Of a stretch of DNA of 64,000 nucleotides, positions 25,188 to 46,451 are shown piece by piece. Both the position numbers and the translations under genes were made by a program. Below the pieces are notes generated by a model. It made no database searches. It saw only the letters and a list, made by a program, of their open reading frames with translations, and was not told where the DNA came from. Source of the DNA: Phascolomyces articulosus (lineage: Eukaryota; Mucoromycota; Mucoromycetes; Mucorales; Lichtheimiaceae); NCBI GenBank assembly GCA_025677815.1, contig JAIXMP010000011.1:1054001-1118000 (forward strand). Reading direction: 5' to 3'. Positions within the stretch are counted from its first letter, which is position 1; every line of letters starts with the position of its first letter.

Positions 25188-27593
25188 ATGACATCTTTTA
25201 TCGACTCATTGTCTATTGCTCAATCTATAGCTCTTGTAGGTGCAACGACACTTGGATTATTATCAATAAAGTATCATGATCGTGCTTTATTTACGGAGAA
25301 GCGTCAAGGAATTCCATTTGTTGAAGGAGCGCCTATTGTCGGTGGATTAATTCATCAATTAAAGAATAAAGATGTATTATTGGATGATGTAGTGGAAGCT
25401 ATGCGTAAATATGATGCATTGACAGTGTATGTATATTTTATTATATAAACCACTATAATTTTATATTAATTTACAGAAAACTATTTAATTGAATAGTTAT
25501 GCTACAGCACTTGGACTTCCTTCTACAGTGATGACAACGGACCCTGACAACGTCGAATATTTATTGAAGGGTAAGTGTGGTCCTGTATTATTCCTCCATT
25601 GTATTAACAATATTTAATTATGATATATAACTGTTAGGTAACTTTTCAAACTATGTAAAAGGCCCACAAATGTTGTAAGTAGAGCTTGTCTGCTGCTTGT
25701 CTCGTGTCACAATTTTTAATACTCACGTTTTCTCTCTCTCACTCTCTCTCTCTCTCTCTCTTTTATATAGGTCAGCTATGGGTGATCTATTTGGTCATGG
25801 CATTTTTGTCGCAAGTGAGTGTAACCTTATTCCCACATTTTCATAAAAGCCTATAAATGTTTTTTTTCTAACAAGGAAAAACTTAAAAATACAGACGGTA
25901 CTCAATGGAAATGGCAACGTAAAGCTGCAAGTTTAATCTTTAACGTGGTCAATTTTCGAGATTATTTCTCTGGTAAGACAATATTATACCCTTTTTTGTA
26001 ATTACTACTGCTGAAATATATGTCATATTTACTAACCATTCTATTTTAACAATTTATTATAGAGTATGTTTATATATATATTAATACAACACAAATAGTC
26101 CCATACAAATAATATTAACAAGTAGTCAATGACTTTGTGTATCTTTTTTAAAAAAAAATTAGGGTCTTTATCAAAGAAGTCGATCTCATGTCCACAAGAA
26201 TTTTTGACAAAAAGGCTGAGAATGGTAGATCTATGGATTTCCATGATGTCATTTATAAATTTACTTTGGATTCCTTTGTCCTTATTGGTTTTGGCAAACA
26301 ATTGAACGCTTTACTTAGCAAAGACAAAGTGCCATTTGCTGCATCTTTTGATATTTGTCAAACCAATTGCTTTGAACGTTTTGTTGATCCATTCACTAAT
26401 TTGCGTGATATGCTGAAACCTATCTTACAACCTGGTTCCCTTCGTATCAAGCAACATTTGGAAATTATTGATGATTTCGCTTATACCTTGATTCGTGAAC
26501 GTCGTGAACAAATGAAGAGTGGAGGGGAATTCAAGGATCTTTTGTCTCGTTTCATGAATGCCAAGAATGAAAACAATGAAACATTATCGGATAAAGAATT
26601 ACGTGATACCGTATTGAATTTCATCATTGGTAAGTAATACGCATATGCATATATTATGATCGTCGTACGGATGACACGTAGAAAGGATTGTTAGTAATTC
26701 AATATATCTACTATACCTGTAGCTGGTCGTGACACAACCGCTCAAGCTTTGAGTTGGACATTTTATAATTTAATGTTACATCCCCGTGTCGAAGCAAAGT
26801 TACTTGATGAAATCAAGCAATATATCCCAGGTGAAATGCAATCATTGGATGCACCTGAAGTCTATGAAATTATTAAGAAAATGACTTATGCTCATGCAGT
26901 GTATGTATAATACATTCTGAAGATTATACCGTATGGTTGACTAACATATACATTTATTTTTATACAGGTTCTATGAGGCAGGTTCCTTGATGCATAACAA
27001 AATAAATGTATTAATACAGAACCTAAAAAGAAAAGAACAAATTAACGCGCTTTTATACATTTAAATTAAATATTTATAGGTACTTCGCCTGTATCCATCA
27101 GTACCCAATAATGTCAAGGTTGCTTTAGAAGATGACGTATTTCCTGATGGAACCATCATTAAAAAGGGAGATAGTGTGGGTTGGTCAACATATGCCATGG
27201 CAAGAAATGAAAAGCTTTGGGGATCCGATGCCAAGTCATTTAAACCTGAACGATGGTTATCAGAAGATGGTGAACTTAAGCGTGAATCTGCAGGTCAATG
27301 GCCTGTTTTCCATGCTGGACCACGTATTTGTAAGTTTTTATATATTAACAATCAATGTCAGTTTTTGAGTGGTATTTATTATTATGATAATATTAATTGA
27401 AAATCTTTTGCACTATATACAAAAAAAAATAGGCCTTGGTCAACATTTGGCTACACTCGAAGCATTGATTGCCATTGTGATGCTATTGAAACGATATAAA
27501 TTTTCTCTTGTTCCTTCACAAACCATTACCTATGATCTCTCATTGACTCATCCAATGAGATATGGTATGCATGTATTCATTGAACGACGTTAA
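25188..27593 (+). CDS. Cytochrome P450, copy 1
   Basis: Microsomal haem monooxygenase. Exons by eye: 25188-25426, 25497-25570, 25638-25674, 25771-25814, 25895-25972, 26063 (one nucleotide), 26163-26629, 26723-26900, 26968-26977, 27080-27329, 27433-27593. They sum to 1539 nt, giving 512 residues, the normal P450 length. Landmarks: N-terminal anchor (SIALVGATTLGLLSI); C-helix WKWQRKAASLIFN; FTLDSFVLIGFG; I-helix AGRDTTAQALSW; ExxR motif FYEVLRLYPSVP; PERF-type FKPERWLSEDG; and haem loop FHAGPRICLGQH with the Cys ligand. The style is that of fungal fatty-acid or xenobiotic CYPs (CYP509 or CYP704-like); the substrate is unknown. The single-base exon is required to keep frame between YFS and VFIKEVDLM. 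The intron after exon 9 uses a GC donor (GCAGGT). Confidence 0.93.
26063..26063 (+). other. Predicted single-nucleotide exon (A) of P450 copy 1
   Basis: The upstream exon ends TCTG at 25972 before GTAAGA, and the downstream exon starts GGTCTTTATC at 26163 after TTAG. Direct joining puts the rest of the enzyme out of frame by one base. The sequence TTATAG-A-GTATGT supplies exactly one base between a canonical acceptor and a canonical donor, restoring S-E-V-F-I-K. The same arrangement occurs at 30077 in copy 2 and 44929 in copy 3. Confidence 0.75.
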
Positions 27594-29181: not shown

Positions 29182-31608
29182 ATGTCATCTTCCACTGATA
29201 CGTTATCTATTGCACGTACATTAGCCATTGCAGGTGCAGCCGCGCTTGGATTATTATCCGTCAAATACCATGATCGTGCTTTATTTACTGAAAAGCGTGA
29301 AGGTATCCCTTTTGCTTCGGGTGCACCTCTTGTGGGTGGATTAATTCGTCAATTGAGGAGCAAAGATGTAGTTTTGGATAATAGTTTGGAACTCATGCAA
29401 GAATACGATACCATGACAATGTAAGGGTTGTTTCGCTTATAACTCATCCATTTTTTTTTTTTTGGACGATGATGAATTAATTTGCATAATAAAAAATTAT
29501 AGTTACACCACAGCGCTTGGTCTTCCTCCGTCGATCATGACCATCGATGCTAATAATGTTGAATATTTGTTGAAGAGTAAGTGTATACCCCTTGAATACA
29601 TTGAAGTGTAAGCTATTATTTTGCTTGTTTCAATTAATCTGCTAAAAAAACAATAGCCAATTTCTCGAATTATGTAAAGGGTCCACAAATGCTGTAAGTG
29701 TTTCATTGTTTATATGTGTCTGTCTCGTGCTCCGAATTTATCAAAGTTTTTGTTTCCTTTTTAGGGATGCTATGGGAGATTTATTTGGCCATGGCATTTT
29801 TGTTGCAAGTAAGTCAGCCATTATGTATAAATGATTCATAAAAAATAAAAGAAAAGGGTTATTCTTATTAGAATATTTACAAATTATAGACGGAAGTCAA
29901 TGGAAATGGCAACGCAAGGCTGCTAGTTTGATCTTTAACGTTGTCAATTTCCGAGATTATTTCACCGGTACGTTTGATAATAATGACACAATTCTATATT
30001 GTGTCTTTTTATAATTACTACTAAAAAATATGTCACACTACGTATATGCTAACCTTTTTCTTTCAACAATTTATAGAGTATGTTGTGTTCTATATTGCAT
30101 TATCTAGTATACAAATAGTTTATTAAGAAATACCAACCCCTTGTCTTATTTCTGTTTTTTTTTAAAAAAAAGGGTATTTATCAAGGAAGTCGATCTCATG
30201 TCCACACGAATTTTTGACAAAAAGGCAGAGAGTGGCAAACCTGTTGATTTCCATGACGTCATTTATAAATTTACTTTGGATTCCTTTGTCCTTATTGGTT
30301 TTGGTAAACAATTGAACGCTTTACTTAGCAAAGACAAAGTGCCATTTGCTGCATCTTTTGATATCTGTCAAAGTAACTGTTTTGAACGATTCGTCGATCC
30401 ATTTACCAATTTGCGTGATATGCTTAAACCGATATTACATCCTGGATCCCTTCGTATCAAGCAACATTTGGAAATTATTGACGATTTCGCTTATACCTTG
30501 ATTCGTGAACGTCGTGAACAAATGAAGAGTGGAGGAGACTTCAAGGATCTTTTGTCTCGTTTCATGAATGCCAAGAATGAAAACAATGAAACATTATCGG
30601 ATAAAGAATTACGTGATACCGTATTGAATTTCATCATTGGTAAGTAATACGCATATGCATATATTATGATCGTCGTACGGATGACACGTAGAAAGGATTG
30701 TTAGTAATTCAATATATCTACTATACCTGTAGCTGGTCGTGACACAACCGCTCAAGCTTTGAGTTGGACATTTTATAATTTAATGTTGCATCCTCGAATC
30801 GAAGCAAAATTACTCGATGAAATCAAGGAACATATCCCAGGTGATGTTCAATCATTGGATGCACCTGAAGTCTATGAAATTATTAAGAAAATGACTTATG
30901 CTCATGCAGTGTATGTATAATACAATATAGTAATGGCTTTCTCTCTGTAGAATATATGTTTACTAACTAAATAGGTAATTATTTTATATAGATTCTATGA
31001 AGCAAGTTTCTTGATGATAAAATTGGATAAGAATAATAAAAAGAGGAAAGAAAATAGCATATACTTATACATATATATTTATAGGTACTTCGCCTTTATC
31101 CTTCAGTTCCCTCTAATGTCAAGGTTGCTTTGGAAGACGATGTGTTCCCAGATGGATCACCTATCAAAAAGGGAGACAGCATTTTTTGGTTTCCTTATAG
31201 TATGGGTAGATCTGAAAAGATTTGGGGATCGGATGCCAAGTCATTCAAACCTGAACGATGGTTATCTGAAGACGGTGAATTAAAACGCGAATCTGCAGGC
31301 CAATGGCCAGCCTTCCATGCTGGTCCACGCATTTGTAAGTTCATACTTTGTATATTGATGTTTATTATTTTTTTTTATTCTTCTTGAAATGTGTTTTTGC
31401 CGCTGATAATAATAACTGATATATATTTTTAATTAAAAAAAAAATAGGTCTTGGACAAAATTTAGCTACACTCGAAGCATTGATTGCCATTGTGATGCTA
31501 TTGAAACGATATAAATTTTCTCTTGTTCCTTCACAAACCATTACCTATGATCTCTCATTGACTCATCCCATGAGATATGGTATGCATGTATTCATTGAAC
31601 GACGTTAA
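29182..31608 (+). CDS. Cytochrome P450, copy 2
   Basis: Paralogue of the gene at 25188. Exons: 29182-29420, 29503-29576, 29657-29693, 29765-29808, 29890-29967, 30077, 30173-30639, 30733-30910, 30992-31001, 31085-31334, 31448-31608. Their sizes are the same as in copy 1 and total 1539 nt. Landmarks kept: membrane anchor TLAIAGAAALGLLSV, WKWQRKAASLIFN, AGRDTTAQALSW, FYEVLRLYPSVP, FKPERWLSEDG, FHAGPRICLGQN. It differs from copy 1 mainly in exon 1, parts of exon 2, and exon 10 (GDSIFWFPYSMGRSEK against GDSVGWSTYAMARNEK), the region that lines the substrate pocket. Intron 9 has a textbook GC donor (GCAAGT). Its 93-nt intron 7 is identical to that of copy 1, whereas other introns are unrelated. Confidence 0.93.
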
Positions 31609-44035: not shown

Positions 44036-46451
44036 ATGTCATTTTCCACTGATGCTTTATCTATTGCACGTACATTAGCCATTGCAGGTGCAGCCACGGT
44101 TGGATTGTTATCCATCAAATACCATGACCGTGCTTTATTTACCGAAAAGCGTGAAGGTATCCCTTTTGCTCCAGGTGCACCTCTTGTGGGTGGATTAATT
44201 CATCAATTAAAGAGTAAAGATGTGTTTTTGGATAATTTTTTGGATCTCATGCAAAAACATGATACCATGACAATGTAAGGGTTGTTTTGTTTATAACTCA
44301 TCCTCTCGAATTTTTTTTTTCTGGACGATAATGTACTAATTTACCATAATTATAAAAAATAATAGCTACACCACAGCGCTTGGTCTTCTTCCGTCGATCA
44401 TGACCATCGATGCTAATAATGTTGAATATGTATTGAAGAGTAAGTAAGACATTGAAGCGTAAGTCTATTATTTTGCATGTTTTAATTAATCTGCTAAAAA
44501 AACAATAGCCAATTTCTCGAATTATGTAAAGGGTCCACAAATGCTGTAAGTGTTTCATTGTTTATATGTGTCTGTCTCGTGCTCCGAATTTATCAAAGTT
44601 TTTGTTTCCTTTTTAGGGATGCTATGGGAGATTTATTTGGCCATGGCATTTTTGTTGCAAGTAAGTCAGCCATTATGTATAAATGATTCATAAAAAATAA
44701 AAGAAAAGGGTTATTCTTATTAGAATATTTACAAATTATAGACGGAAGTCAATGGAAATGGCAACGCAAGGCCGCCAGTTTGATCTTTAACGTTGTCAAT
44801 TTCCGAGATTATTTCACCGGTACGTTTGATAATAATGACACAATTCTATATTGTGTCTTTTTATAATTACTACTAAAAAATATGTCACACTACGTATATG
44901 CTAACCTTTTTCTTTCAACAATTTATAGAGTATGTTGTGTTCTATATTGCATTATCTAGTATACAAATAGTTTATTAAGAAATACCAACCTCTTGTCTTA
45001 TTTCTGTTTTTTTTAAAAAAAGGGTATTTATCAAGGAAGTCGATCTCATGTCCACACGAATTTTTGACAAAAAGGCAGAGAGTGGCAAACCTGTTGATTT
45101 CCATGACGTCATTTATAAATTTACTTTGGATTCCTTTGTCCTTATTGGTTTTGGTAAACAATTGAACGCTTTACTTAGCAAAGACAAAGTGCCATTTGCT
45201 GCCTCTTTTGATATCTGTCAAAGTAACTGTTTTGAACGATTCGTCGATCCATTTACCAATTTGCGTGATATGCTTAAACCGATATTACATCCTGGATCCC
45301 TTCGTATCAAGCAACATTTGGAAATTATTGACGATTTCGCTTATACCTTGATTCGTGAACGTCGTGAACAAATGAAGAGTGGAGGAGACTTCAAGGATCT
45401 TTTGTCTCGTTTCATGAATGCCAAGAATGAAAACAATGAAACATTATCGGATAAAGAATTACGTGATACCGTATTGAATTTCATCATTGGTAAGTAATGC
45501 GCATATGTATATATTATGATCGTCGTACGGATGACACGTAAAAAGGATTGTTAGTAATTCAATATATCTACTATACCTGTAGCTGGTCGTGACACAACCG
45601 CTCAAGCTTTGAGTTGGACATTTTATAATTTAATGTTGCATCCTCGAATCGAAGCAAAATTACTCGATGAAATCAAGGAACATATTCCAGGTGATGTTCA
45701 ATCATTGGATGCACCTGAAGTCTATGAAATTATTAAGAAAATGACTTATGCTCATGCAGTGTATGTATAATACAATATAGTAATGGTTTTCTCTCTGTAG
45801 AATATATGTTTACTAACTAAAATATGTAATTATTTTATATAGATTCTATGAGGCAAGTTTCTTGATGATAGAATTGGCTAGGAATAATAAAAAGAGAAAA
45901 TAGCATATACTTATACATATATATTTATAGGTACTTCGCCTTTATCCTTCAGTTCCCTCTAATGTCAAGGTTGCTTTGGAAGACGATGTATTCCCAGATG
46001 GAACACCTATCAAAAAGGGAGACAGTATTTCTTGGTCACCTTATAGTATGGGTAGATCTGAAAAGATTTGGGGATCGGATGCCAAGTCATTCAAACCTGA
46101 ACGATGGTTATCTGAAGACGGTGAATTAAAACGCGAATCTGCAGGCCAATGGCCAGCCTTCCATGCTGGTCCACGCATTTGTAAGTTCATACTTTGTATA
46201 TTGATGTTTATTATTTTTTTTATTCTTCTTGAAATGTGTTTTTGCCGCTGATAATAATAACTGATATATATTTTTAATAAAAAAAAATAGGTCTTGGACA
46301 AAATTTAGCTACACTTGAAGCATTGATTGCCATTGTGATGTTATTGAAACGATATAAATTTTCTCTTGTTCCTTCACAAACCATTACCTATGATCTCTCA
46401 TTGACTCATCCAATGAGATATGGTATGCAAGTATTCATTGAGCGACGTTAA
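44036..46451 (+). CDS. Cytochrome P450, copy 3
   Basis: Closest to copy 2. Exons: 44036-44274, 44366-44439, 44509-44545, 44617-44660, 44742-44819, 44929, 45023-45489, 45583-45760, 45843-45852, 45931-46180, 46291-46451. Total 1539 nt, 512 residues. Haem loop FHAGPRICLGQN, I-helix AGRDTTAQALSW, ExxR FYEVLRLYPSVP and anchor TLAIAGAATVGLLSI are intact. It differs from copy 2 at a few residues, such as GDSISWSPYSMGRSEK in exon 10 and a final GMQVFIERR. Introns 3-6 are almost identical to copy 2, so the pair is recent. The 3' flank is unlike the other two copies. The single-base exon is at 44929, and intron 9 uses a GCAAGT donor. Confidence 0.93.

Follow-up and report, generated by a model that had tools for sequence, protein, structure and literature searches.

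Four cytochrome P450 genes of Phascolomyces articulosus very probably contain an exon of a single nucleotide. In genes A, B and C of the window (the whole stretch of DNA analysed, 64,000 nt, C13:1054001–1118000) and in a more remote paralogue, L041, on another contig, two GT-AG introns of 86–109 nt would surround one exonic A that completes a glutamate codon, G-A-G in A, B and C and G-A-A in L041. The codon belongs to the motif FRDxF[ST]-[D/E]-VFxKE, which we take to be the start of helix D. Exactly one base was found between AG and GT in all four genes, with a complete intron of the above length on each side; the splicing of this base as an exon is itself predicted from the genomic sequence. 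A one-base exon is the extreme of gene structure and is known from few genes only. Gene A has the following features.

25188–27593, + strand: gene A, cytochrome P450, 11 exons, CDS of 1539 nt (512 aa), rebuilt from GT-AG introns and a single GC-AG intron; Pfam PF00067
25895–25972, + strand: exon 5, with a phase 1 end (TCT G), read from the sequence
25973–26062, + strand: intron 5, 90 nt, GTAAGA...TTATAG, donor 6.8 bits, acceptor 8.6 bits
26032–26036, + strand: CTAAC, likely branch site of intron 5 from a branch-site scan, branch A 27 nt from the intron end
26063, + strand: exon 6, a single A, the middle base of the Glu codon GAG, from the rebuilt gene and splice enumeration
26064–26162, + strand: intron 6, 99 nt, GTATGT...AATTAG, donor 8.8 bits, acceptor 8.6 bits
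26163–26629, + strand: exon 7 of the rebuilt gene; its first base is the last of the Glu codon, and VFIKEVDLM follows
26968–26977, + strand: exon 9 of the rebuilt gene, a 10-nt microexon, GTTCTATGAG; the intron after it, 26978–27079, is of the GC-AG type

The gene A protein scored 260.7 bits against PF00067 (cut-off 22.8) and carries the P450 signatures ExxR, as EVLR, and FxxGxRxCxG, as FHAGPRICLG. Among the matches listed, the closest ones bearing a family name were CYP5203 proteins of Phycomyces at 54–56% identity, which we give as a likeness only. The site of the one-base exon lies after WxxQRK and well before ExxR.

An earlier, sequence-only reading of this DNA had held that exons 5 and 7 of gene A cannot be joined in frame, and the rebuilt gene showed the same: exon 5, ending TTCTCTG at 25972, and exon 7, starting GGTCTT at 26163, are one base out of register. 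The frame is restored by the A at 26063, within TTATAGAGTATGT at 26057–26069, and with the one-base exon included the total of 11 exons and 1539 nt was reproduced. The two introns of 90 and 99 nt, described in that reading as of normal size, are ordinary beside the 33 other introns of A, B, C and L041 (67–124 nt, median 91). Its companion statement that a single intron of 190 nt would be large held for these four genes, since their other introns span the range just given; single introns at the same site measure 74–148 nt in eight paralogues.

For each of the four genes we enumerated single introns of the GT-AG, GC-AG and AT-AC types whose ends lay at most 45 bases within and at most 30 bases beyond the flanking exons, as well as microexons of the right length, up to 31 nt, lying between AG and GT. 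None of the stop-free single introns (8 in A and 11 each in B, C and L041) left exactly one residue before VF. The candidate microexons numbered one in A, four each in B and C and three in L041, and only the one-base A kept the family length. In L041 one alternative (1162/1339), with an acceptor two bases inside exon 7 scoring 4.5 bits, would lose only one residue. For gene A the one-base exon proposed earlier was thus the sole enumerated choice combining canonical sites, an open frame and the residue count of the family, which supports that reading at the level of sequence.

Splice sites were scored with a matrix built from the 33 other introns of the four genes, 30 of which provided GT donors. 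The one-base exon of gene A is bounded by an acceptor of 8.6 bits and a donor of 8.8 bits; the sites required by the alternatives scored −0.5, 3.4, −4.1 and −11.7 bits. A CTAAC or CTAAT lies 24–28 nt from the end of intron 5 in all four genes. The intron 5 donor of L041, GTTCGT, is weak at 1.7 bits, the minimum among the 30 training donors being 2.3, and intron 6 of B and C yielded no YTRAY branch site, a lack shared by 10 of the 33 training introns. The motif TATAGAGTATGT occurs three times in the window, against 0.01 expected, each time at the one-base exon site of A, B or C. The looser YAGAGTAYGT was found at the same three places only (0.40 expected), and three occurrences were reached in 2 of 100 shuffles. 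When each of the four gaps between exons 5 and 7 was subjected to 5000 dinucleotide shuffles, YAGAGTAnGT flanked on both sides by no less than 45 nt appeared in 0.06–0.12% of the shuffled gaps, and together with a YTAAY branch site in 0.02–0.06%. AGAGT appeared in 3–5% and the bare AG-N-GT in 19–23%, and the bare triplet would therefore carry little weight by itself.

The same layout was observed in two tandem paralogues of gene A, both rebuilt in the same way.

29182–31608, + strand: gene B, 11 exons of the same lengths as in gene A, CDS of 1539 nt
29968–30076, + strand: gene B intron 5, 109 nt
30077, + strand: gene B exon 6, a single A, also from splice enumeration
30078–30172, + strand: gene B intron 6, 95 nt
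44036–46451, + strand: gene C, 11 exons of the same lengths as in gene A, CDS of 1539 nt
44820–44928, + strand: gene C intron 5, 109 nt
44929, + strand: gene C exon 6, a single A, also from splice enumeration
44930–45022, + strand: gene C intron 6, 93 nt

Since B and C are identical at 202 of 203 positions of the gap, the two count as one witness. Genes A and B have a dS of about 1.2 upstream of the site, and their introns are identical at 63 of 87 aligned bases (intron 5) and 56 of 89 (intron 6); despite this divergence TTATAGAGTATGTT is intact between them. In the expected frames dN/dS between A and B was 0.12 before the site and 0.11 after it, so both sides look translated.

The protein family served as a ruler for the length of the product. 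Two protein searches (best 120 each) gave at least 138 different homologues. A count of residues at the site against other P450s, which the sequence-only reading had put forward as a check, gave exactly one residue in 126 of these 138 among the matches listed, with D or E in 97 of the 126. Two residues stand there in three proteins (P0012, P0023 and P0038), and nine are off the pattern, including P0001, P0003 and P0004, in which the VFxK stretch is missing, again among the matches listed. The same reading had argued that the one-base exon keeps the helix length expected of P450s. Taken as sequence spacing, this agrees with what we measured: all four genes have 47 residues between WxxQRK and the helix motif that follows it, and so do 113 of the 127 measurable homologues among the matches listed, 11 of the 138 being not measurable. 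On a family profile made from 129 of the 138 homologues (P0001–P0004, P0012, P0023, P0024, P0038 and P0053 left out), the form with the one-base exon was the top-scoring one in all four genes, a glycine at the site scoring about 2 bits lower. By enumeration, spacing and profile alike, the one-base exon was needed for both the frame and the conserved protein.

Public models of three of the four genes are among the homologues, and they agree with three different alternatives. P0002, the Phascolomyces articulosus model of gene C, reads TGVF, which is matched only by a non-canonical junction. This corresponds to a long single intron, of the type GT-TA in A and L041 or GT-AA in B and C, whose non-canonical acceptor would give S/T-G-V-F. 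Homology by itself would still be compatible with a glycine at the site, given a profile penalty of only about 2 bits; the splice sites appear to speak against it. The acceptor so required differs between the genes and scored −2.3 bits in A, −1.6 in B and −8.6 in L041, although the matrix punishes any end other than AG, and a long intron would leave the common TTATAG-A-GTAYGT and the branch site that precedes it without purpose. Glycine was found, among the matches listed, in only 2 of the 126 one-residue homologues, P0002 itself and P0024, and we conjecture that in P0002 it could have arisen from reads bearing the A, which an aligner placed on the genomic G. We consider the long intron very unlikely.

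The other two public models correspond to a single canonical intron in which the donor or the acceptor is displaced and the protein length changes. P0001 (Phascolomyces articulosus), 97% identical to gene A and its public model, uses an acceptor at 26177 and thereby loses VFIK; P0038, the public model of L041, gains one residue through a donor four bases further on, and the same donor shift would add one residue in B and C. These forms thus have public models on their side, but the shifted sites scored −0.5 bits in A, −4.1 in B and C and −11.7 in L041, and they lower the family profile score by 7 to 22 bits. They also change the spacing to 42 or 48 residues, against 47 in the large majority of measurable homologues; the six proteins with 42 or 48 among the matches listed are P0001, P0003, P0004, P0012, P0023 and P0038. 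A shifted site is therefore highly improbable. Models that are odd at the site were also seen in related species: P0012, P0023 and P0024 of Zychaea mexicana, P0003 of Circinella minor and P0026 of Lichtheimia hyalospora have one residue too many, a glycine or a missing stretch. The genes behind them may hold further one-base exons or other frame puzzles.

With two introns around a one-base exon, introns 5 and 6 would leave the transcript in succession, by intron definition. Sequential removal is most likely because the U1 site of intron 6 (AGA/GTATGT) overlaps the AG of intron 5, and since the intron 6 donor of gene A scored 8.8 bits before removal of intron 5 and 8.0 bits after it, either order could work. 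The mechanism as a whole we infer. Fungal stwintrons (nested twin introns), as described in the portions of that literature available, likewise consist of two adjoining introns removed one after the other, but leave no exon base between their parts, and in the genes studied here such a product is out of frame. The sequence does fit the layout of a [D1,2] stwintron, in which the internal intron would end at the second AG (TATAGAG) and the G of exon 5 with TATGT would re-form a donor, of 7.2 bits in A and 5.8 in B, with no exon base left. However, the product has a stop in all four genes, where a [D1,2] stwintron yields an in-frame mRNA, so we regard this explanation as extremely improbable; the route may be taken as a splicing error. 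A sequencing error or a decayed gene that needs no such exon is hardly credible, as nothing was found in its support (the long A and T runs of the gap lie inside introns), the frame need is common to four genes in two strongly diverged groups, each of the four genes has an intact reading frame between ATG and stop, and the dN/dS values speak against decay.

Genes with other arrangements at the same codon were found when the genome (47.4 Mb, 110 contigs) was surveyed and 20 further paralogous loci were fetched. The two-intron layout was present in one of the 20, L041 on contig C20, where the site reads ACAG/GTTCGT...TTATAG/A/GTACGT...ATAG/AGTATTC with introns of 87 and 86 nt. Eight loci (L039, L040, L042, L043, L044, L046, L053 and L054), read by eye, have a single phase-2 intron of 74–148 nt at the intron 6 position, that of L040 with an apparent GC donor (CA/GCAAGT). 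The intron is absent from the site in ten loci, and L055 is too partial to tell. The phase-2 intron would be the older of the two, since it is present alone in eight paralogues; a second intron would then have been gained one base upstream of it, with one base stranded as an exon. As the same genome has four copies as well as relatives that have a single intron or no intron at the codon, the birth of a one-base exon should be traceable if the exons are confirmed. It is possible, if somewhat doubtful, that one-base exons arose more than once at this codon by intron gain one base upstream, that the intron pairs are standing intermediates of one-base intron sliding, and that the Mucorales are rich in such exons unseen by annotation. 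If sliding is the true course, loss of the old intron would leave a phase-1 intron. A one-base intron shift is reportedly the subject of one published study. Alternatively, the loss of a base may have been rescued by a cryptic exon, the scenario given in the accessible part of the report on CYP621A (PMC12940212), but the gaps from exon 5 to exon 7 are 174–205 nt long in A, B, C and L041, against 74–148 nt for the intron of the eight single-intron paralogues, which intron gain fits better.

A quick tree built from 52 proteins placed A, B and C with P0003 of Circinella minor (support 99) and next with P0004 of Zychaea (94), and L041 with the Circinella umbellata protein P0053 and the Zychaea protein P0023 (support 100) in another clade that also has single-intron paralogues; the Circinella and Zychaea genes were judged by their protein models alone. 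A single clade for A, B and C plus L041 was rejected, with p-AU of 8e-8 for the four genes and 1e-89 for eight rows with presumed orthologues, in a test for which L046 and L053 were dropped as long branches and the groups were named after the tree had been seen. Counted by hand, a history of two gains and one loss is shorter by one step than one with a single gain and three losses. We therefore favour two origins, in separate clades of the P450 family; one early gain followed by three losses is possible. The model of P0053, which is nearest to L041, is regular, so its gene need not have a one-base exon, a point that we count against the one-base reading.

Two further comparisons of the gaps were made. 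Tandem duplication of one intron was rejected, as introns 5 and 6 are unlike: 98%, 15% and 90% of 500 shuffles scored as high in A, B and L041. Shared descent of the gaps of A, B and C with that of L041 was likewise not upheld, the intron-by-intron similarity being not significant (7% and 7%; 38% and 26%). Over the whole gap the similarity was suggestive, reached in 0 of 300 shuffles for A against L041 and in 1% for B against L041, a value that includes the common splice motif.

Exons of this kind are already known from APC11 and VPS55 of plants and from CYP621A of Fusarium, according to the portions of the reports available (PMC4674806, PMC8831610, PMC12940212); VPS55 and CYP621A are absent from the sequence-only reading. 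The nearest case is CYP621A, a fungal P450 with a one-nucleotide exon supported by 18 SRA reads (Nelson and Syed 2026, PMC12940212). As far as the accessible text of that report goes, CYP621A shares with the genes studied here a phase 1 upstream and a phase 2 downstream junction, an AG-N-GT in an over-long gap, a base that completes the codon of a conserved motif, and public models that are mostly wrong there. Its base, by the same text, is a G in the middle of a Gly codon, in a PKG motif between ExxR and PERF, whereas here it is an A in the codon of an acidic residue far upstream; with a site before ExxR, our genes are not of the CYP621A type. They also belong to another P450 family, come from the Mucorales, form a set of four paralogues in one genome and are known from sequence alone (compared with the available part of PMC12940212). 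The precedent cited in the sequence-only reading, APC11 of Arabidopsis, stands: in the part of the report accessible, its single-nucleotide exon is proven by cDNA and constructs (Guo and Liu 2015, PMC4674806). It is likewise a single A between two introns, constitutive in APC11, a plant gene whose protein is unrelated to these P450s. For VPS55 of land plants the available part of the report describes a 1-nt microexon with RNA-seq and RT-PCR support (PMC8831610). As in our genes, it is kept in a gene family in which some copies are without it, and it is missing from annotation; the gene is again a plant one with an unrelated protein. The title of a further report announces that the mitochondrial cox1 gene of Placozoa has an exon of one base.

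The literature searched for one-base exons, with most subscription journals outside its scope, contained no case from the Mucorales. If confirmed by RNA, the exons described here would add another P450 family to the short list and would be the first Mucorales case, as far as that literature goes. Confirmation would also mean that public gene models are wrong at the site in Phascolomyces, and perhaps in Circinella and Zychaea too.

Some other features of these genes were observed. Exon 7 (437 of 467 positions), exon 8 (167 of 178) and intron 7 (93 of 93) are far more alike between A and B (26163–26722 and 30173–30732) than are exons 1–5 and the other introns, and this likeness suggests that gene conversion has occurred between these two tandem genes. 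The 10-nt microexon of exon 9 (VFYE) is common to A, B and C and precedes a GC-AG intron whose donor is GCAGGT or GCAAGT (26968–27079, 30992–31084 and 45843–45930); the microexon is misread in the public model P0001 (FYEAGSLMHNKINV) and correct in P0002. L041 also has a very short exon, of 14 nt, at positions 2415–2428 of its locus.
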